A stretch of DNA of 64,000 nucleotides, taken from assembly GCA_009788055.1 (NCBI GenBank), contig WQSG01000008.1, positions 1-64,000 on the forward strand, given 5' to 3'. Of this stretch, positions 6,860 through 62,528 are shown one piece after another. This DNA is from Defluviitaleaceae bacterium. Lineage in GTDB: Bacteria > Bacillota > Clostridia > Lachnospirales > WQUN01. The position numbers and the translations under genes were made by a program. Under the pieces are notes generated by a model. It was not told where the DNA came from, ran no database searches, and saw only the letters and a program-made list of their open reading frames with translations. Every line of letters begins with the position of its first letter. Position 1 is the stretch's first letter.

Positions 6860-7048
6860 TTGACGGAGCGACAACCACAACGCCGTAAAGTAGATGTGGC
6901 AATCTACGGGCGAGGACGCATGAATTGGCATAATGATACTCCCGTTAAGTCACAGTCCGAGCGTTAAAAGCGTCCCCGACAATGATAGCGGTAGCGTGAG
7001 AACCACGCTAGGGTTAAATTCCCGTGAGGACAAGCCCGCGTCCGTCCG
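6860..7048 (+). ncRNA. Candidate structured RNA resembling HEARO/omega RNA
   Basis: A dense set of short helices: GTAGAT/ATCTAC (6890-6895, 6902-6907), CGGG/CCCG (6907-6910, 6941-6944), TAGCGTG/CACGCTA (6992-6998, 7004-7010), GGG/CCC (7011-7013, 7021-7023), and a long-range closing pair GGACGC/GCGTCC (6914-6919, 7038-7043). There is no open reading frame. From memory the pattern resembles the HEARO family (guide-RNA scaffolds of IscB/IsrB nucleases), but no HNH or RuvC-like gene is adjacent. A covariance-model search would decide the family; the structure itself is visible. Confidence 0.45.
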
Positions 7049-49027: not shown

Positions 49028-49636
49028 GTGATTTTTATTTCAAAAACGCATCGCGAAAGACAAAGCAAAATAAAAGTAAAAAAGATTTTGGACGCGGCGC
49101 GGCAAGTTTTTTGCCGCAAGGGTTTTGTGGCGGTAACAATGCAGGATATCATAGACGAGTGCGGCATTTCTCGCGGGGGGATATATCTGTATTTTGCGTC
49201 GGTAGACGAAATTTTTTTAGAGGTAATGAAGCACCGCAACAAAGAAAGATTTTCAGAAGTAAATACGGCGGTGCAAGGGCTTGAACCCTTCGGGAAAGTT
49301 CTTGCGGATTATTTTGCGCGGCAAAAGGAAAGGCTCTTAAATTTTGAAAACAGCCTGTTCCGCGCATACTGCGAGTACATTTTTTCCAAACCAAAGCCCG
49401 CGGTTCAGGCGTTCCGCGATATTCAGTTTGCGCAATTGCAACGAACAATTGTATCCATTTTGCAATTAGGCGTTGGCGACAACAAGAAAATTCACCGCTT
49501 GGCAAATCATTTTATAGTGGTAATTGACGGGCTTAGTGTGCTTGCGCTGGCAGAAGCCCTTACAGAAGACTTGATAGACGGGCAATTTGAAATTCTAAAA
49601 GAGCTAATCCAAAAGGAGAATGAAAATGCAGACTAG
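49028..49636 (+). CDS. TetR/AcrR-family transcriptional regulator
   Basis: About 202 residues. N-terminal HTH: KKILDAARQVFCRKGFVAVT, MQDIIDECGISRGGIYLYFA; the rest is the ligand-binding helical domain. There is no ATG. Options are TTG 49019, GTG 49028 or an ATT at 49037 that lies best behind AAAAGGGTGA; I use the GTG. It overlaps the downstream ECF S-component gene, so it likely controls that gene and itself through the palindrome at 48962. Confidence 0.88.
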   Translation: MIFISKTHRERQSKIKVKKILDAARQVFCRKGFVAVTMQDIIDECGISRGGIYLYFASVDEIFLEVMKHRNKERFSEVNTAVQGLEPFGKVLADYFARQKERLLNFENSLFRAYCEYIFSKPKPAVQAFRDIQFAQLQRTIVSILQLGVGDNKKIHRLANHFIVVIDGLSVLALAEALTEDLIDGQFEILKELIQKENENAD

Positions 49637-50210
49637 GCAGACGACAGGCATTGCAATCATGATTGCAATAGTAATTTTATTGCAGGTTTTTGCAACGGCG
49701 GTAAACTTTGTAACGCCGGGAACAATTCCAATCGCGCTGGTGCTTCCGCCTATTATAATTGGGGCGGCTATGTATGGCGTACAGGCTGGCATGATTTTGG
49801 GCTTTAGTTTTGGGCTAATTGTGTTGGGCAGCGGAATTTTCGGCATTGCACCAACCTCCGCAATGATGTGGAGCGTAAGCCCCGTTATCATGACAGTGGG
49901 TACACTTGGCAGGGGCGTGGCGGTCGGATTTACCGCAGGCATTTTGTATAAACTGTGGGAACAGCGCAGTACATTTGTTGGCGTGCTTTTTGCCGCCGTT
50001 GCTGTGCCGCTTGTTAATACCGCCATTTTTGCGGTGGTGTTTTATCTGTTCATCGAAGTGCTTGTGGAAGAAGGCCCCGGGCAAACCGTTTTGCACTATG
50101 CTTCGGCTTTCATTATAGGCGTCAATTTCGTGATGGAATTGGTTTTTAACATCGTGCTGGCATCCGCAATTGTGCGGATAATCGAAGCCGTGAAAAGACA
50201 GCGGCAGTAA
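49626..50210 (+). CDS. ECF-type transporter substrate-binding (S) component-like protein
   Basis: 194 residues with about six membrane segments in the arrangement of ECF S components (IALVLPPIIIGAAMYGVQAG, AVGFTAGILYKLW, an N-terminal AIMIAIVILLQVFATAVNF). The ATG at 49626 has AAAAGGAGAATG ahead. It overlaps the TetR gene by 11 bases. No ECF ATPases or T component are adjacent, so it would share a common energising module. The substrate (a vitamin or cofactor precursor) cannot be told. Confidence 0.75.
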   Translation: MQTRQTTGIAIMIAIVILLQVFATAVNFVTPGTIPIALVLPPIIIGAAMYGVQAGMILGFSFGLIVLGSGIFGIAPTSAMMWSVSPVIMTVGTLGRGVAVGFTAGILYKLWEQRSTFVGVLFAAVAVPLVNTAIFAVVFYLFIEVLVEEGPGQTVLHYASAFIIGVNFVMELVFNIVLASAIVRIIEAVKRQRQ

Positions 50211-55363: not shown

Positions 55364-57337
55364 TTAGTCAATCAGAACACGTAACATCCGTGCGGCTTCT
55401 GCGCGGGTGATGGTGTGGTTGGTGTGGGGAGTGAGGTCGAGGGCGGCGTAGTTGTAAAGGACGGCGGCGAAGTGTGCTTGTGTTATGGGGGCGTTGGGAC
55501 GAAATGTGCCGTCTGTGAAGCCGCGAGCAATGCCGTTTGCGCGTGCCCAGCGTGCGGCATTTGTGTACCAGCGCGCGGGCGATACGTCGGAAAAGTCGGG
55601 GCTGTGTGTGATGGGTGTGTCATTCAGACGCCATAGTATGTGGATTAGCATTGCGCGGGAAAGATTTGTGTCGGGGGCGAAAACGCCGTGTGCAGTGCCT
55701 GTCATAAGCCCGCGTGTGTACATGGCTTTTGCGTATTGGTAGAACCAATCGGTTTCGGAAATATCTGCGAAGGGGTTTGCCCATGTTTGGTATGCTTCGG
55801 GGGTAGGCGTTTCGGGAAGGGGGGCTTGCGCGGGTTCGGTGTATCGGGTGGGTTCTTCTGTGTCGTATGGGGGTTCTTCTTCCGCGGGAGTTTCTTCTTC
55901 CGTAAGGTCTTCGTATTCGTATTCTTCTTCGTCTTCTTCGTACTCGTCTTCGGAAACGAGCGGGGTATCGCCGCCGGTGTACAGCCACTCTACCCTGTAA
56001 TTATTTCGCAGAGTGAAAGTGTCGGCTGCCCTTGCGGGAAAAACGCCGTTTACGCTGTAAGTCCAGCCCGACGCGGGGCCGTGGTCGAACTCTGCCAAGC
56101 CGCCGATGCTGTATACATATGCCCTGCGCGAACCGATTGCAAGCCCTGTTCTGCGAAGGAGCGAGTATGCGGTTTCGTTGTGGTTGAGGTCGAAATAGCC
56201 TTCAAAAAACAGCGCGGTTTCGCCTGCGCGGGCGTAATCGTTGCGCACACTTATGAATGCTCTGCCCGTTGACGGAAACCAATCCTGCGGCGGGCGCGGG
56301 CGGCGGCGCGGCGGCGGTTGGGTTTCGGCTTCTTCGCCCGCGTCGCTCATATCGTACAGCGTGTTCATGCCGTTTACGTGCCGATAAAACGCAACCAAGG
56401 CGTAGGCGGCTTGCTCTGTACTCATTGCGTTTACGATTGGCTCGCCCGTTTCCCAATCAAAGAAGAAAAACCCGCCCGTTTCTTGGCAGAAGAAATTTAG
56501 AATTTCGGCGGCGTGTTCTTCCGCGCAACGCCCGATTGAAGTAAGGGCAACTATGACCTGCGCAAAATCTTCCGCACCGAAAAAGAATTGTTCCGATATC
56601 CAGTCAAGCCCCGCATTTATTGCGGCGGCGGCGTTTTCGTGCGTTTCGTAATACGGCGCAAGTGCCTGAATTGCCATTGCCGTCAAATCCACAGACGGCC
56701 AATCGCCCCATTCGCTTACCCACGCCCACGCGCCGTCCTCGCCCTGCGCCGCAAGAATTGACTCCATAAAGCGTTCTTGCTCTCCTTCGTAAGGGCGAGA
56801 ATTTAGGGCAATAAGCGCGTAAATATCCGCCGTAATGCCTTGGCTGTGGTTGGGTCTTTCCTCCACTGGGGTAAAATAGCGGAACGGCGCAAGTAAATCG
56901 GTTTCGTTGAAGTCGCTTGCGTCCACGTCCAGCGCGGTTAGTGCAAGTGTTACACGCTGAAAGCACGTCCAGTTTGTGAGGGTTTCGATTTCGTCTGCCA
57001 CGTTTGACAAATATGCTTCAAACCATTCGTCTGCGGCGATATTGGCGCGGGCAAGCGCGATTACCGCCCATTCATCGCCCACGGACGGGTTTGGCGAATT
57101 TTCTTTCAACCAACCAAGCGCGTCTGCCAACGCATACTGCCATGTAACGGGCGTTTCGTCTTCCGTTTCTTCTTCGGGGGGCAATTCCGCCGACAGCGCG
57201 GCAGGTGAAATTCCCCCCGCAAATGCAAACCCGTGCGGCGTTTCCGCCCCTTCATTCCCTGCCGAAATGACTGCGGGCAAAAGCCCAAAAGCCATAACCA
57301 CGGCAAGAAAAACTGCAAGTAATTTTGTTTTACGCAT
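55364..57337 (-). CDS. Transcobalamin/intrinsic-factor-like surface protein with SLH domains
   Basis: 657 residues. Signal peptide (~1-26). An all-helical toroid of prenyltransferase/terpenoid-cyclase repeats (~45-330; DIYALIALNSRPYEGEQERF, WPSVDLTAMAIQALAPYYE), a Pro/Arg linker (PPPRRRPRPPQDW), a DUF4430 transcobalamin-type beta domain (~360-455; SGWTYSVNGVFPARAADTFT, LRNNYRVEWLYTG), an acidic linker (~460-505), and SLH modules (~515-657; FADISETDWFYQYAKAMYT, FSDVSPARWYTNAARWARAN). The toroid plus DUF4430 is the domain order of mammalian transcobalamin and intrinsic factor. The gene is preceded by a cobalamin riboswitch and terminator. Likely role: capture of cobalamin at the cell surface. 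ATG 57337 follows GAGAGGAG. Confidence 0.88.
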   Translation of the reverse strand: MRKTKLLAVFLAVVMAFGLLPAVISAGNEGAETPHGFAFAGGISPAALSAELPPEEETEDETPVTWQYALADALGWLKENSPNPSVGDEWAVIALARANIAADEWFEAYLSNVADEIETLTNWTCFQRVTLALTALDVDASDFNETDLLAPFRYFTPVEERPNHSQGITADIYALIALNSRPYEGEQERFMESILAAQGEDGAWAWVSEWGDWPSVDLTAMAIQALAPYYETHENAAAAINAGLDWISEQFFFGAEDFAQVIVALTSIGRCAEEHAAEILNFFCQETGGFFFFDWETGEPIVNAMSTEQAAYALVAFYRHVNGMNTLYDMSDAGEEAETQPPPRRRPRPPQDWFPSTGRAFISVRNDYARAGETALFFEGYFDLNHNETAYSLLRRTGLAIGSRRAYVYSIGGLAEFDHGPASGWTYSVNGVFPARAADTFTLRNNYRVEWLYTGGDTPLVSEDEYEEDEEEYEYEDLTEEETPAEEEPPYDTEEPTRYTEPAQAPLPETPTPEAYQTWANPFADISETDWFYQYAKAMYTRGLMTGTAHGVFAPDTNLSRAMLIHILWRLNDTPITHSPDFSDVSPARWYTNAARWARANGIARGFTDGTFRPNAPITQAHFAAVLYNYAALDLTPHTNHTITRAEAARMLRVLID

Positions 57338-57379
57338 TGTAAAACTCCTCTCGTTTTGTAAATCGCGTTGCAAATAAAA

Positions 57380-57407
57380 AAAGCACGTCCGTCAAAGAAA
57401 CGTGTCT
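57380..57407 (-). terminator. Riboswitch terminator
   Basis: On the minus strand, GACACGT...ACGTGC forms a stem followed by seven T residues, between the cobalamin aptamer and the start codon of the surface-protein gene. Ligand-dependent termination is the expected mechanism. Confidence 0.7.
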
Positions 57408-57469
57408 TAAAAAAGGGTATGTAAAACCGACCCTAAGTCCTTAACACATTGCTCCGTTCGGGGAAACAA

Positions 57470-57600
57470 CGAAGTGCCACGGCGTATCTGACTTATCGCT
57501 TCGGCAGTAAACAGCCAAAGCGCATCACAGTGACCCGCTCGCAGGGAATCGCACCCTATTCCGCCCCAAGAAATTCTTGGTAGTGGCACCTAATATGCTT
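57470..57600 (-). promoter_or_regulatory. Cobalamin riboswitch
   Basis: Reading the minus strand: AGGTGCC near 57592, the core GGAATAGGGTGCGATTCCC, GCGGGTCACTGTGATG, and GATAAGTCAGATACGCC closing with GTGGCAC near 57480 (pairing with GGTGCCAC at the 5' end). These are the conserved blocks of the B12 family in order. It lies ~130 bases before the start of the transcobalamin-like gene. The gap 57338-57706 holds only this and the divergent kinase promoter region. Confidence 0.9.
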
Positions 57601-57706
57601 TTGAAAAATACTACACGAAAACATCCGAGATTGCAAACTATTGAAAGCGCACCTATGGTAGGCTATAATACAAAAGTCTAAGAATTATTCCGAAAGTTGG
57701 TTGCGT

Positions 57707-59713
57707 ATGAATTCTGTATTTGAGCATCACGATGCCCTGCTGATTGAGAATAAGAAGCTTAAAGAAGAGAACCGCCTACTTAAAAAGAAAGTAAAAACTT
57801 CGGACGCGGACATTAGCAATGCGCTGGAAGCGGCAAAGCAAGCAAACCTGTCCAAGTCTAAATTTTTGACTACCATGAGCCACGAAATACGAACCCCTCT
57901 TAATGCAATCATAGGGATATCGGATATTGAACTGTTAAACAAAAAAGCTACCAGAGGCGCGAAAGACGCGTTTGGAAAAATAAATAATTCAGGCAAATTG
58001 TTGCTGGGTATTATTAACGATATCTTAGACCTTGCAGAGTTGGAATCGGGCAAGATGGAAATAATGCCCGAAAAATACGATACCGCCGCCATGATAAATG
58101 ACATAACGCAGTTTAACTTACTTAAAATGGGTGAAAAAGAACTTGACCTAATCGTAAAAGTGCCCGAAACTTTGCCCGCGTCACTGTGCGGGGACGAGCT
58201 TCGCATACGGCAAGTGCTTAACAATATGCTTTCCAACGCCATAAATTTCACACAGCAAGGCAGTGTTACTTTTGAAATTGATTTCAAAACGCGGAATTAC
58301 GGCGGAGCGATTATCTTCAGAATAAAAGACACGGGGCAGGGTATGTCCCGCGAGCAACTTATTGCTTTGCACGAGCAAAACTCTATTTTCAACCGTGTAG
58401 AAAACCGCACTACAGAAGGCGCGGGCATGGGCATTAGTCTTTCCGTTAAAATTGTGGAAATGATGGATGGCATGATAGACGTGGAAAGCGAGCCGGGCGA
58501 AGGCACCACGGTTACAATATATCTGCCGCAAAGCAAAGTAGAGGGCGACACCGCAACCATAGGCGCGGCAACGGCGGAAAGCCTTAAAAATCTCAAGTTT
58601 ACGGGTGCGGAAAAAGCAAAGCTGGAACGCGCCTATATGCCATACGGAAAAGTGCTTATAGTTGACGATATGAACACCAACTTATTTGTGGCGCAAGGCC
58701 TTATGAAACCATACGGGCTTACCATTGAAACTGCCATAAGCGGTTTTGAAGCCTTGGACAAAATACGTGCGGGCGACACATATGACATCATTTTTATGGA
58801 CCACATGATGCCCGAAATGGACGGCATGGAAACCACGCAACGCATTCGGGAAACAGGGTACACACGCGCAATTGTCGCGCTTACGGCAAACGCGCTTATA
58901 GGGCAAGCCGAAGAATTCATGAAAAACGGGTTCGACGGTTTCATTGCCAAACCCATTAACATAGGCCAGCTTAACGATTCGCTAAACACCCTTATCCGCG
59001 ACAAGCAAACGCCCGAGGTATTAGAAAACGCAAGGCTTGAAAAAGAACGGCTGGACAGCGAAGAAGAGGACGCACCAATCGAAAACGCGGAAGCCGACAC
59101 AGACACAGATGACGACCCGCTGGCTACCCTTCGCAAAATAGATATGCTGGACGTTGACCCCGCACTGGACGCAATGAGCGGTCTGCCCGATTTATATATA
59201 GACACGGTGAAACTAACCATGCGGCTGTTATCCGAACGGGTGGAAAAAATGGACAAATTCCTGCCTACAGACATTAAAGCGTTTACAATTGAAGTACACG
59301 GGCTAAAAAGTTCCATGAAAAATATCGGCGCGTCAAAACTGGGAAGCCAAGCCGCCAAGCTGGAACGCAACGCTCTGGACGGCAACCATGATTACTGCAA
59401 CGAAAATTATCCGCCGTTCAAAGAGGGACTTTTAACGCTGGAGTCGCTTCTTAAAGCGGCGTTGGGCGACGACGGCGCGGAAGAAAAAGAAACCGCAGAA
59501 GTATCTTCGCTTCTGCCTGCGTTGGAAGAAGCAAAAACCGCCGCAGAAAGTTATGACCGCGATACCGCAATGGACATCATCACAAAACACGCCGCATTTT
59601 CCTACGATGAAGAGACGGACAAAACACTGCAAGAAGTTATTAACGCACTGGAAGTTTTCGATTGCACAGCGGCATTTGATAAACTGCAAGAGTTGCAAGA
59701 CAAAATAAAATAA
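57707..59713 (+). CDS. Hybrid histidine kinase with receiver and Hpt domains
   Basis: 668 residues, no membrane segment. N-terminal coiled coil (~5-40; LLIENKKLKEENRLLKKKVK), HisKA (FLTTMSHEIRTPLNAIIG), HATPase_c (LNNMLSNAINFTQQG, GAGMGISLSVKIVEMM), receiver (~310-430; VLIVDDMNTNLF, IIFMDHMMPEMDGMET), and an Hpt domain (~480-590; TIEVHGLKSSMKNIGA). The signal input would be through the coiled coil or a partner. It forms an operon with the CheY-like regulator (16-base gap) and the second hybrid kinase. The start has a weak RBS. Confidence 0.92.
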   Translation: MNSVFEHHDALLIENKKLKEENRLLKKKVKTSDADISNALEAAKQANLSKSKFLTTMSHEIRTPLNAIIGISDIELLNKKATRGAKDAFGKINNSGKLLLGIINDILDLAELESGKMEIMPEKYDTAAMINDITQFNLLKMGEKELDLIVKVPETLPASLCGDELRIRQVLNNMLSNAINFTQQGSVTFEIDFKTRNYGGAIIFRIKDTGQGMSREQLIALHEQNSIFNRVENRTTEGAGMGISLSVKIVEMMDGMIDVESEPGEGTTVTIYLPQSKVEGDTATIGAATAESLKNLKFTGAEKAKLERAYMPYGKVLIVDDMNTNLFVAQGLMKPYGLTIETAISGFEALDKIRAGDTYDIIFMDHMMPEMDGMETTQRIRETGYTRAIVALTANALIGQAEEFMKNGFDGFIAKPINIGQLNDSLNTLIRDKQTPEVLENARLEKERLDSEEEDAPIENAEADTDTDDDPLATLRKIDMLDVDPALDAMSGLPDLYIDTVKLTMRLLSERVEKMDKFLPTDIKAFTIEVHGLKSSMKNIGASKLGSQAAKLERNALDGNHDYCNENYPPFKEGLLTLESLLKAALGDDGAEEKETAEVSSLLPALEEAKTAAESYDRDTAMDIITKHAAFSYDEETDKTLQEVINALEVFDCTAAFDKLQELQDKIK

Positions 59714-59729
59714 GCAGGGGGAACTTACC

Positions 59730-60119
59730 ATGAAGGGCAAAAAGATTTTATTGGTAGACGATAACAAAACGGTAATGACAGAAAACTCGCTGAAATTCAG
59801 CGATGCGGGATACGAGGTTGCCTGTGCGTTAACCCTCATAGATGCCCATATTTTGCTGGAAAAATTTAAGCCGGACGCAATTGTGCTGGACGTTATGCTG
59901 CCCGACGGAAGCGGCTTGGAATTTATAGAAGAGCTGAAAAAAGGCGAATTTGCGGAAACACCCGTGTTGCTTCTTTCGGGGCTTGCGGAACAGGATGATA
60001 TCATCCGCGGTATGCTTGCGGGCAGTGACTTTTATTTGACAAAACCGTATGAGTTTAATGTTTTGCTTGAAAAAACAAATTCTCTTGTTGCAAATCCGAC
60101 TAAAAAAGGCAAAAAGTAA
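59730..60119 (+). CDS. Single-domain response regulator (CheY-like)
   Basis: 129 residues: LLVDDNK, phosphoacceptor in VLDVMLPDGSGLEF, Thr/Ser in LLLSGLA, Lys in YLTKPYEF. No output domain. It sits between two hybrid kinases in one operon, so it may be the shuttle or sink of the phosphorelay. The ATG follows GCAGGGGGAAC. Confidence 0.93.
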   Translation: MKGKKILLVDDNKTVMTENSLKFSDAGYEVACALTLIDAHILLEKFKPDAIVLDVMLPDGSGLEFIEELKKGEFAETPVLLLSGLAEQDDIIRGMLAGSDFYLTKPYEFNVLLEKTNSLVANPTKKGKK

Positions 60120-60131
60120 GGGGGCAGATAA

Positions 60132-62528
60132 ATGCAAATCATACAGGAACACGGCAAAAAAGTAAGCATTACCCAAGAACTTAACGACGCTTTCAAATCA
60201 CTAAAACACCGCGAGATGCTTCTTAAAACAATAACCCGTGCGGCAGAGGCGTTGCTTACCACCAGCGAGGAAAACACACTGCAAGCACTTATGACAAGCA
60301 TGGAGGCGGTAGGCACCAGCCTTGACGTGGACAGGGTACAAATTTGGCGCAACGAAGAAGTGGATGGAGAGTTCTGTTTTGTTATGCGCTACGAATGGCT
60401 AAGCGAAGTTGGCAAAGCAAAAACAGCAGTACCGCTTGGGCTAACTTGCCCATATGACAGCGTGCCGGGCTGGTACGAAATGTTTTTGAGGGGGGATTAC
60501 ATAAACGGTCCCATATCCGAACTTTCACCATCCGAAGAGGCCTTTCTGGGTCATTACGAAATGGTGTCTATCGTAATTTATCCGCTGGTTCTAAACGACC
60601 ATTTTATCGGTTTTTTCAGCGTGGACGACTGCCGAAAAGAGCGCGTGTTAACAGGCGCGGAAATGAACTTGGTTGCCTCTGCGGGTTTGATGTTCACCAG
60701 CGTGTTCAACCGCGCAGAACGCAGAAAGCTAAAAAACGAGCTGGATTTGGAACGCCAAAACAACAAAATTACAATGGAAAGCAACAAAGCAAAAACCAGA
60801 TTTTTGGCGCGTATGAGCCACGAAATACGCACGCCAATCACCGCGATTTTGGGCATTTCGGAAATTCAGCTGTATCAAAGTTTGCCGCCCGCCATCACAG
60901 AATCCTTCGAGAAAATTCATAACTCTGCAACTTTGCTTCTGCAAATTATCAACGATATCTTAGACTTGTCTAAACTTGAAGCAGAAAAAATGAGTTTGAA
61001 AACCAAGGAATATACCCTTGCAAGCGTCATAAACGACGTAACCAATATGCATTTTGCCTTCTCGGGTGAAAAAAGCCCCACGTTTAAACTGCACGTGGAC
61101 GAAAACCTACCCGCTACACTAAACGGCGACTCTTTGCGCATTAAGCAAATTTTGAGCAATTTGCTTTCCAACGCGTTTAAATATACGGAAGCGGGCCGCG
61201 TGGAAATGTTTTGGAGCAGTGAAAAAATCGAAGGCGACAACGAAAAAATACACATAGTAGTTTGCATAAAAGACTCCGGCTTAGGCATGACAAAAGAGCA
61301 ACTTGCATCCCTTTCCGAAGAATACACCCGCTTTCACGAAAGCGAAAACAGGGTAATTGAAGGCACGGGGCTTGGTATGCCAATCGTGTACAGCCTTGCA
61401 AGCCTGATGAATGCAAAAATTGATTTTGAAAGTGAAGTTGGGGTTGGCACAACCGTAACTGTCCGCATACCCCAAAACGTAATCGGAGACGAGGTATTGG
61501 GCAAGGATGTCATTGCAGATTTAAGCGAGTTTAGTATCAAGCATTCCGCAAAAGGGAAAGGCAAAATTGCGCCTGAACCAATGCCATACGGCAAAGTTCT
61601 TGTTGTGGATGATATCGACGCAAACATTTATGTAATCCAAGGCTTGCTGAATTTTTACGGGCTGGATATCGAAACCTGCACAAGCGGGCAAGCTGCCATA
61701 GACAAAATATCGCAGGGCAAAATCTACGACCTTGTTTTTATGGACCAAATGATGCCCGAACTAAGCGGCACGGAAACCCTTATTCAAATACGCAGTCTGG
61801 GCTACAAAAAGCCCGTGATTATGCTAACCGCAGACGCGGTATCGGGCAAGGAAGAAGAGTACATCAACAGCGGGTTTGACGGATTTATTACAAAACCGGT
61901 TGACACACGCCACCTTAACCGCGCACTTCTTAAATTTGTGCGCGACGTGCAACCGCCCGAAGTAATTGCAGCCGCCCTCACCGCCGAAAAACCCGTACGC
62001 GCCGAAAATATCGACGACTTCCAAGACAACGAAGACCTTATCAATCGCCTGCAAAGAAGTTTTATACGCAACCACAAAAACACAATGGCAGACCTTACCG
62101 CCGCGCTTAACGAAAAAAATACCGAAGCCGCGTATTTTATCGCGCACACCATCAAGGGTTCTGCGGGAACAATAAAAGAAAACAAACTGGGCTTGCTTTC
62201 GGAACATCTTTCAAGTGCGCTGAAGGAAGGCAATATTCCGCCCGCACGATATGTATCGCGGTTTGAAAAGGAACTGCAAACCGTATTGGGTAAAATAACA
62301 GCGGCGGAAAGTTCAAACACTCCCGCCGGTGTGGATAAGGCAAATGCCATAGAAATTCTTAACGAACTTAAACCGCTACTGGAACTGCACAGCCCCAAAT
62401 GCCTGCAAGCGGCAGACAAACTGCGCGGCATACCCGAAGCCGCCGTGCTTGTTAAAATGATAGACTCATTCGATTTTGGCGGCGCGCTGGACGTAGCAAA
62501 CATACTTGCAGACCTGTTTAGCGACTAG
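60132..62528 (+). CDS. GAF-domain hybrid histidine kinase with receiver and Hpt domains
   Basis: 798 residues. GAF (~25-200; TSLDVDRVQIWRNEEVDGEF, LVLNDHFIGFFSVDDCRKE), HisKA (FLARMSHEIRTPITAILG), HATPase_c (LSNLLSNAFKYTEAG, GTGLGMPIVYSL), receiver (~490-620; VLVVDDIDANIY, LVFMDQMMPELSGTET) and Hpt (~640-750; FIAHTIKGSAGTIKE). Soluble. It overlaps the convergent receiver-GGDEF gene by 11 bases. Domain order is the same as in the kinase at 57707 apart from the GAF, suggesting duplication. Confidence 0.94.
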   Translation: MQIIQEHGKKVSITQELNDAFKSLKHREMLLKTITRAAEALLTTSEENTLQALMTSMEAVGTSLDVDRVQIWRNEEVDGEFCFVMRYEWLSEVGKAKTAVPLGLTCPYDSVPGWYEMFLRGDYINGPISELSPSEEAFLGHYEMVSIVIYPLVLNDHFIGFFSVDDCRKERVLTGAEMNLVASAGLMFTSVFNRAERRKLKNELDLERQNNKITMESNKAKTRFLARMSHEIRTPITAILGISEIQLYQSLPPAITESFEKIHNSATLLLQIINDILDLSKLEAEKMSLKTKEYTLASVINDVTNMHFAFSGEKSPTFKLHVDENLPATLNGDSLRIKQILSNLLSNAFKYTEAGRVEMFWSSEKIEGDNEKIHIVVCIKDSGLGMTKEQLASLSEEYTRFHESENRVIEGTGLGMPIVYSLASLMNAKIDFESEVGVGTTVTVRIPQNVIGDEVLGKDVIADLSEFSIKHSAKGKGKIAPEPMPYGKVLVVDDIDANIYVIQGLLNFYGLDIETCTSGQAAIDKISQGKIYDLVFMDQMMPELSGTETLIQIRSLGYKKPVIMLTADAVSGKEEEYINSGFDGFITKPVDTRHLNRALLKFVRDVQPPEVIAAALTAEKPVRAENIDDFQDNEDLINRLQRSFIRNHKNTMADLTAALNEKNTEAAYFIAHTIKGSAGTIKENKLGLLSEHLSSALKEGNIPPARYVSRFEKELQTVLGKITAAESSNTPAGVDKANAIEILNELKPLLELHSPKCLQAADKLRGIPEAAVLVKMIDSFDFGGALDVANILADLFSD

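Follow-up and report, generated by a model that had tools for sequence, protein, structure and literature searches.

The minus-strand gene at positions 55364 to 57337 of the window (the whole stretch of 64,000 nucleotides of DNA analysed here) encodes a secreted-type surface protein in which an alpha/alpha toroid is followed by a DUF4430 domain and an S-layer homology (SLH) anchor. The open reading frame is preceded by a GAGGAG ribosome-binding site in front of the ATG at 57337, which is the likelier start codon and gives a product of 657 amino acids; the alternative TTG at 57373 is less likely. A signal peptide with a basic N-terminus, a hydrophobic core and an AxA-like end was read by eye at approximately residues 1–27 (57257–57337). 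The toroid covers approximately residues 64–324 (56366–57148) according to an AlphaFold2 model and the structural search VIA. It is separated by a disordered proline-rich linker (approximately residues 334–357, 56267–56338; pLDDT below 50 at model residues 308–331) from the DUF4430 domain, a transcobalamin-type beta-grasp (SLBB) domain at approximately residues 358–455 (55973–56266) that was assigned by both Pfam (PF14478, 9.5e-12, residues 403–454) and fold search. The wall anchor at approximately residues 520–640 (55418–55780) consists of two SLH stretches above the Pfam cut-off (PF00395, 2.5e-19) and aligned to the SLH structures of Bacillus Sap (3e-6). The remnant TITRAEAARMLRVLID (55367–55417), recognized in the sequence only, makes the SLH count two full repeats and a fragment of a third. 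The order toroid, DUF4430 and SLH proposed by the sequence-only reading, a model's annotation made from the letters, was found in this reading frame, with the last two modules identified by Pfam.

The N-terminal toroid half gave no Pfam match. The prenyltransferase-type toroid that had been read there is nevertheless backed by the structure model, and smaller toroid paralogues encoded in similar operons hit the Prenyltrans and SQHop families. Since PF01122 was absent among the Pfam matches of the protein at E up to 1, we liken it to the animal cobalamin-binding family and do not file it in that family. Divergently from this gene, positions 57701–62528 of the plus strand hold a small response regulator gene flanked by two large genes for hybrid sensor kinase/response regulators. 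Elsewhere in the window, a pemK RNA (RF02913) was detected at 6930–7027 (plus strand) with 65.2 bits, far over its cut-off.

Residues 27–455 were modelled by AlphaFold2 with seven homologous rows as input. The model has a pLDDT of 82.5, which is mostly above 85 in the toroid and low only at the N-terminus and in the proline-rich linker. In a Foldseek search of the PDB with this two-domain model, the best 14 matches were all intrinsic factor, transcobalamin or haptocorrin (E from 9.7e-9 to 5.7e-7), and the 15th was a terpene cyclase (1.5e-3). The sequence identity to these animal carriers is only 11–15%. The rmsd across the two domains is about 21 Å, as the domains are placed otherwise in the apo model with its low-confidence linker, and the ligand cleft is therefore not reproduced by the model. 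The superposition proposed for residues 27–455 thus gave the B12 carriers as the best structures in the PDB but not their two-domain geometry.

The whole-model VIA table contained toroids only, because the toroid is the large domain, and the DUF4430 domain was hence also folded alone as a control (pLDDT 80.7). Foldseek returned marginal matches for it, with intrinsic factor second and haptocorrin third. In VIA, its first 14 rows by Z were the beta domains of haptocorrin, transcobalamin and intrinsic factor (Z 8.6–10.2), a range overlapped by other beta-grasp proteins, which start at Z 8.6. The transcobalamin-like architecture claimed by the sequence-only reading therefore emerged from both the two-domain search and the DUF4430 domain alone, and in the model the order of toroid and beta-grasp is that of transcobalamin, intrinsic factor and haptocorrin. 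By itself, the toroid is a generic alpha/alpha toroid, nearest to terpene cyclases (VIA Z of about 22 over model residues 37–297) and to GH76/epimerase toroids. Its sequence profile found squalene-hopene cyclases and terpene-cyclase toroids; the profile of the protein gave no match to transcobalamin, and the DUF4430 profile returned nothing useful. DxDD is the catalytic acid motif of class II terpene cyclases. Its position is occupied by SVDL in the window protein, and the last Asp is missing in the aligned relatives checked; the class II terpene cyclase assignment of the toroid was consequently rejected.

Upstream of the gene, the leader carries a variant cobalamin riboswitch aptamer, including P13, at 57443–57591 on the minus strand, defined by a covariance model (R1) and by covariation. 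A probable promoter (TTGCAA, a spacer of 17 nt and TAGTAT; approximately 57602–57636, minus strand), read by eye, lies just upstream of it. Several relatives have a similar −35/−10 pair (TTGCAA or TTGACA, followed by a TATATT-like hexamer) at this position; a consensus promoter scan did not confirm the TTGCAA/TAGTAT pair and gave a weaker pair at 57711–57684. Downstream of the aptamer, a terminator scan found an intrinsic terminator hairpin CACGTTTCTTTGACGGACGTG followed by CTTTTTTT at 57404–57384 (minus strand), as the sequence-only reading had noted, and the conserved leader blocks which it had quoted lie exactly at the places given. The blocks follow each other in the homologous leaders as GCGGAAUAGGGUGnnAnUCCCUGCGAGCGGGUCACUGUGA, a variable P6, GAUAAGUCAGAUACG, the 3′ strand of P1, and P13.

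The identification of this leader as a B12 riboswitch was to be checked with the Rfam cobalamin models. At the gathering thresholds, no Rfam family was found at the leader. The sole match in a relaxed search (E up to 10) was the AdoCbl riboswitch RF01482 at 57444–57580 (minus strand) with 16.4 bits and E 1.7, below the curated cut-off of 50 bits. The leader is therefore outside the Rfam clan CL00101 as curated, its scores lying below the gathering scores of RF00174 and RF01482. We do not count this failure as a refutation because the homologous leaders covary strongly. Leaders in related genomes share long blocks with that of the window. The pattern GTCAGATACGCC had an exact copy in its own genome only in the window, and with one or two mismatches it did not occur there above a reversed-pattern control. 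A MAFFT alignment of eight leaders misaligned P1, and R1 was therefore built from four leaders, the window included, in whose alignment seven pairs were changed on both sides. R1 scored the window leader at 174.5 bits, the window being a training member, and found this single place in the whole own genome.

Among 96 relatives, R1 detected 22 places in 19 genomes; its E-values are rough, its matches are to be taken as related sequences, and the genomes surveyed are mostly metagenome bins. In 18 homologues, changes on both sides were seen in 32 of the 47 pairs, paired cells made up 91.8% as against 36% to at most 52.5% in slid controls, and the covariation score was 0.440 compared with 0.201 in shuffles, although this alignment was fitted to the structure and so leans towards it. 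RNAalifold recovered the main helices from the same alignment, with 24 of 37 pairs compensated. The covariation and the independent consensus fold together indicate that the leader RNA structure is real. By fold and covariation, the core secondary structure and the conserved blocks of a cobalamin riboswitch are present. The CGGG of L5 could pair with the CCCG of L13 in a kissing loop; both are nearly invariant, so covariation is uninformative there. The members of this RNA group scored 16–35 bits with RF01482 or were unlisted, all below 50 bits, and for several of them the best Rfam match at this site was AdoCbl.

The variant RNA stands mostly before genes of one kind. Toroid/DUF4430 clusters are headed by 17 of the 22 R1 places, and toroid genes stand at 13 of the 18 places outside the training set (chance about 1e-32 by a rough uniform-position estimate). 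The gene of a class II adenosylcobalamin-dependent ribonucleotide reductase (NrdJ) lies downstream at two places, in genomes G048 and G059 (L098:1890–4826 on G048:C5 and L099:119–3043 on G059:C180), and the two proteins score 1163 and 1154 bits to the NrdJ equivalog. At these loci the downstream enzyme depends on the presumed ligand, and the RNA may act as either an on- or an off-switch. The remaining places are a contig end, one site without an assigned gene and one weak match. The latter (36 bits) is a short RNA at L102:2009–2077, upstream of a YitT-family gene (L102:2220–3095, G079:C1); it has the same core (GGAACGGGGUUCAAAGCCCCACGAACUGGUCACUGUGAAGCC...AUAAGUCAGAUACAUGCC) and is possibly a related RNA with another role, and the YitT-family membrane protein carries DUF2179. 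In one leader (L082, G023:C136, near 21426), about 130 extra bases are inserted between the aptamer core and P13. A survey of 391 genomes of the class added toroid genes in G128 and G360, a Peripla_BP_2 binding protein (the BtuF/heme/siderophore type) in G454, and a contig end. The candidate L118 was rejected as a true BtuF, as it matched Peripla_BP_2 only and its BtuF score was sub-threshold. R1 gave no match before the nrdJ genes of four further genomes or near the other toroid/ECF loci of the own genome.

Canonical RF00174 riboswitches precede the same kind of genes in G012, G020, G045, G053, G066 and G081 and at L003. The own genome had none at E up to 1, nor had the R1-bearing genomes among the 41 scanned; conversely, R1 gave nothing above noise on the canonical copies (best 10 bits, E 1.2). 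The occurrence of two RNAs that do not cross-match before homologous operons points to a shared ligand. The B12 riboswitch identity noted from the sequence is thus supported by the comparative evidence, whereas it fails the curated Rfam threshold. In another genome (G075), an AdoCbl riboswitch above the cut-off (63.3 bits, L065:948–1089) stands before a lipoprotein gene, several kb from the toroid genes.

The leader of the window would presumably act as an off-switch. The 5′ arm of the terminator (ACACGUU) is complementary to AAUGUGUU, the P13 3′ strand and its tail, and the two can pair in most leaders. In single leaders this antiterminator pairing is modestly above shuffles (11/200 for the window), and its position recurs. 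An unconstrained ligand-free fold of the full window leader preferred the downstream pairing over P13. In two leaders of genus g11 (L074 of G036 and L087 of G019), the terminator is missing, the ribosome-binding site (GAGAGGAG) and the start codon come directly after P13, and control is probably translational there.

The SLH-toroid-DUF4430 gene stands alone in its own genome with no adjoining ECF gene, and in the closest relative (G007) it is followed by a small toroid gene alone. In several other relatives (G006, G015, G069 and others) it opens an operon that continues with a small toroid, a DUF4430 protein (lipoprotein), a CbiQ-like membrane protein, and fused ECF ATPases with an S domain. 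The CbiQ-like (ECF-T-like) protein was assigned from its position and appearance and had no Pfam or NCBIfam match; the S domain, fused to two ATPases in several relatives, weakly matches folate/riboflavin S families. The own genome encodes a further small toroid (L046:7197–8177) and, at L005:1276–2206 (G000:C33), a DUF4430 lipoprotein of 139 amino acids followed by a 193-amino-acid membrane protein with a sub-threshold DUF6580 match, which is possibly the cobalamin S component of the host. ECF-type ATPases and an ECF-T-like protein are encoded on the same contig as this lipoprotein. The suggestion that B12 is handed to an importer encoded elsewhere fits these findings, as the operons of relatives hold an ECF importer and the ECF module of the host is on another contig. 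A 196-amino-acid membrane protein of the window (49620–50210, plus strand) was considered as an ECF S component by likeness to the eye and was rejected, as it had no Pfam or NCBIfam match. The host genome (94.65% complete) encodes the B12-dependent methionine synthase MetH and lacks NrdJ; CobS, the sole synthesis gene searched for, was not found at E up to 0.01. The presence of MetH and the absence of CobS and NrdJ fit an organism that requires B12 and does not complete the vitamin on its own.

A 2007 study (Burroughs et al., PMC1796856) used domain searches and gene neighbourhoods to predict bacterial B12 scavengers in which a toroid is combined with an SLBB domain of the transcobalamin clade, with ECF-type genes nearby. 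The window protein is of this predicted kind: it has a signal peptide (read by eye) and a toroid fused to SLBB, and its host lacks a key B12 synthesis gene. The operons of relatives likewise contain a second SLBB protein and CbiO/CbiQ-like ECF genes, whereas the window gene stands alone, with the ECF module and the DUF4430 lipoprotein on another contig. The text of that paper (PMC1796856) contains none of the terms SLH, S-layer and riboswitch; the SLH form, the link to a riboswitch and a riboswitch variant below the Rfam thresholds are added here. In the open-licence literature we found no paper joining DUF4430 with a cobalamin riboswitch, and no proof of binding or riboswitch link for the bacterial relatives of the carriers.

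The animal proteins intrinsic factor, transcobalamin and haptocorrin share with the bacterial protein the extracellular location and the toroid followed by a beta-grasp domain, and they are the best PDB matches of its model. The bacterial protein differs from them in its proline-rich linker and SLH wall anchor, in lacking a glycoprotein receptor system, and in its low identity, missing profile match and deviating domain geometry. ECF-CbrT is a proven cobalamin importer (PMC5997447). Similarly, an ECF-type importer with an S domain is encoded in the operons of relatives together with a DUF4430 lipoprotein, but in several of them the S domain is fused to two ATPases, and the likeness is one of gene content. 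A Lacticaseibacillus protein has been annotated as an 'additional lipoprotein component of putative cobalamin ECF transporter', separately from a remark on DUF4430 (PMC9963975). The leader RNA has in common with RF00174 and RF01482 the GGAA junction, the GGGUGnnAnUCCC hairpin, CACUGUGA, the AAGUCAGA block, a closing P1, P13, the terminator and the regulated genes. It differs in its 3′ block, GUCAGAUACGYYG, which is of the GCCAGGAGACCUGCC type in those families, and in scoring below both cut-offs.

We interpret the locus as one for B12 scavenging, in which a toroid-DUF4430 protein captures the vitamin and relays it to an ECF importer under the control of a divergent riboswitch, and give this account as a whole a probability of about 0.8. 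The architecture, the fold similarity, the RNA structure supported by covariation and the genomic association were computed directly; we infer the B12 binding, the hand-over chain and the direction of the switch. The host would be a gut-type anaerobe of the Clostridia that requires B12 and probably does not make it. The protein would be secreted and held in the wall by its SLH modules, and cobalamin (or another corrinoid) might be captured between the toroid and the DUF4430 beta-grasp domain, as in animal transcobalamin. It would then be passed on to a second layer of small secreted toroids and DUF4430 lipoproteins and imported by the ECF-type transporter. The divergent riboswitch, of the adenosylcobalamin type, would govern expression. 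Under cobalamin shortage, the P13 3′ strand would pair with the terminator 5′ arm and allow read-through; when cobalamin is plentiful, the folded aptamer with P13 would free the terminator and synthesis would stop. It also seems reasonably probable that a subclass of AdoCbl riboswitches escaping Rfam runs, in one group of Clostridia, the whole relay from the wall transcobalamin through the second toroid/DUF4430 lipoprotein layer to the ECF importer, as well as NrdJ.

A surface corrinoid binder whose main ligand is other than cobalamin, for example cobinamide or a cobamide made by neighbours, is an unlikely but serious alternative. Cobalamin riboswitches are reported to answer broadly to corrinoid cofactors (PMC9600662), the ECF importer CbrT transports cobinamide as well as cobalamin (PMC5997447), and the two-domain fold says little on the lower ligand; cobinamide could, however, not be completed by the usual route in a host without CobS. 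That the toroid is instead a secreted enzyme, terpene-cyclase-like or glycoside-processing, with DUF4430-SLH as a mere anchor, appears very improbable. The structural neighbours of the toroid alone and its sequence relationship to squalene-hopene cyclases would suit such an enzyme, but the aligned relatives lack an intact DxDD motif, which makes an enzyme unlikely, the two domains together match B12 carriers only, and the toroid-DUF4430 family occurs along with cobalamin-type riboswitches and an ECF importer.

As to the RNA, the sub-threshold Rfam score and the weak R1 match before the YitT-family gene could be taken to mean that the leader senses a non-corrinoid ligand. This is extremely unlikely, since the leader blocks match the cobalamin core, AdoCbl is the best Rfam family in several members at 16–35 bits, the variant precedes the gene of NrdJ, an adenosylcobalamin enzyme, and in sister genomes RF00174 takes its place before homologous toroid/DUF4430 genes. 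A cobalamin-responsive leader might also work as an on-switch, which would make sense in the two genomes where the variant stands before an enzyme requiring adenosylcobalamin. For the window we regard this as quite unlikely: an off-switch is expected for a scavenging gene, and the P13 3′ strand pairs with the terminator 5′ arm in most leaders, the window fold preferring the downstream pairing.

The proposed B12-scavenging locus unites the carrier architecture, wall anchoring, B12-type regulation and, in relatives, importer operons, and it suggests extracellular capture of B12 by bacteria in much the same way as in animals. Residues 27–455 offer a compact construct for the question of B12 binding by a bacterial transcobalamin. 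As standard annotation misses this family of cobalamin-type riboswitches, the B12 regulons of such anaerobes are under-counted. If the relay proposed here is true, the suggested bacterial origin of the animal B12 carriers would become directly testable.
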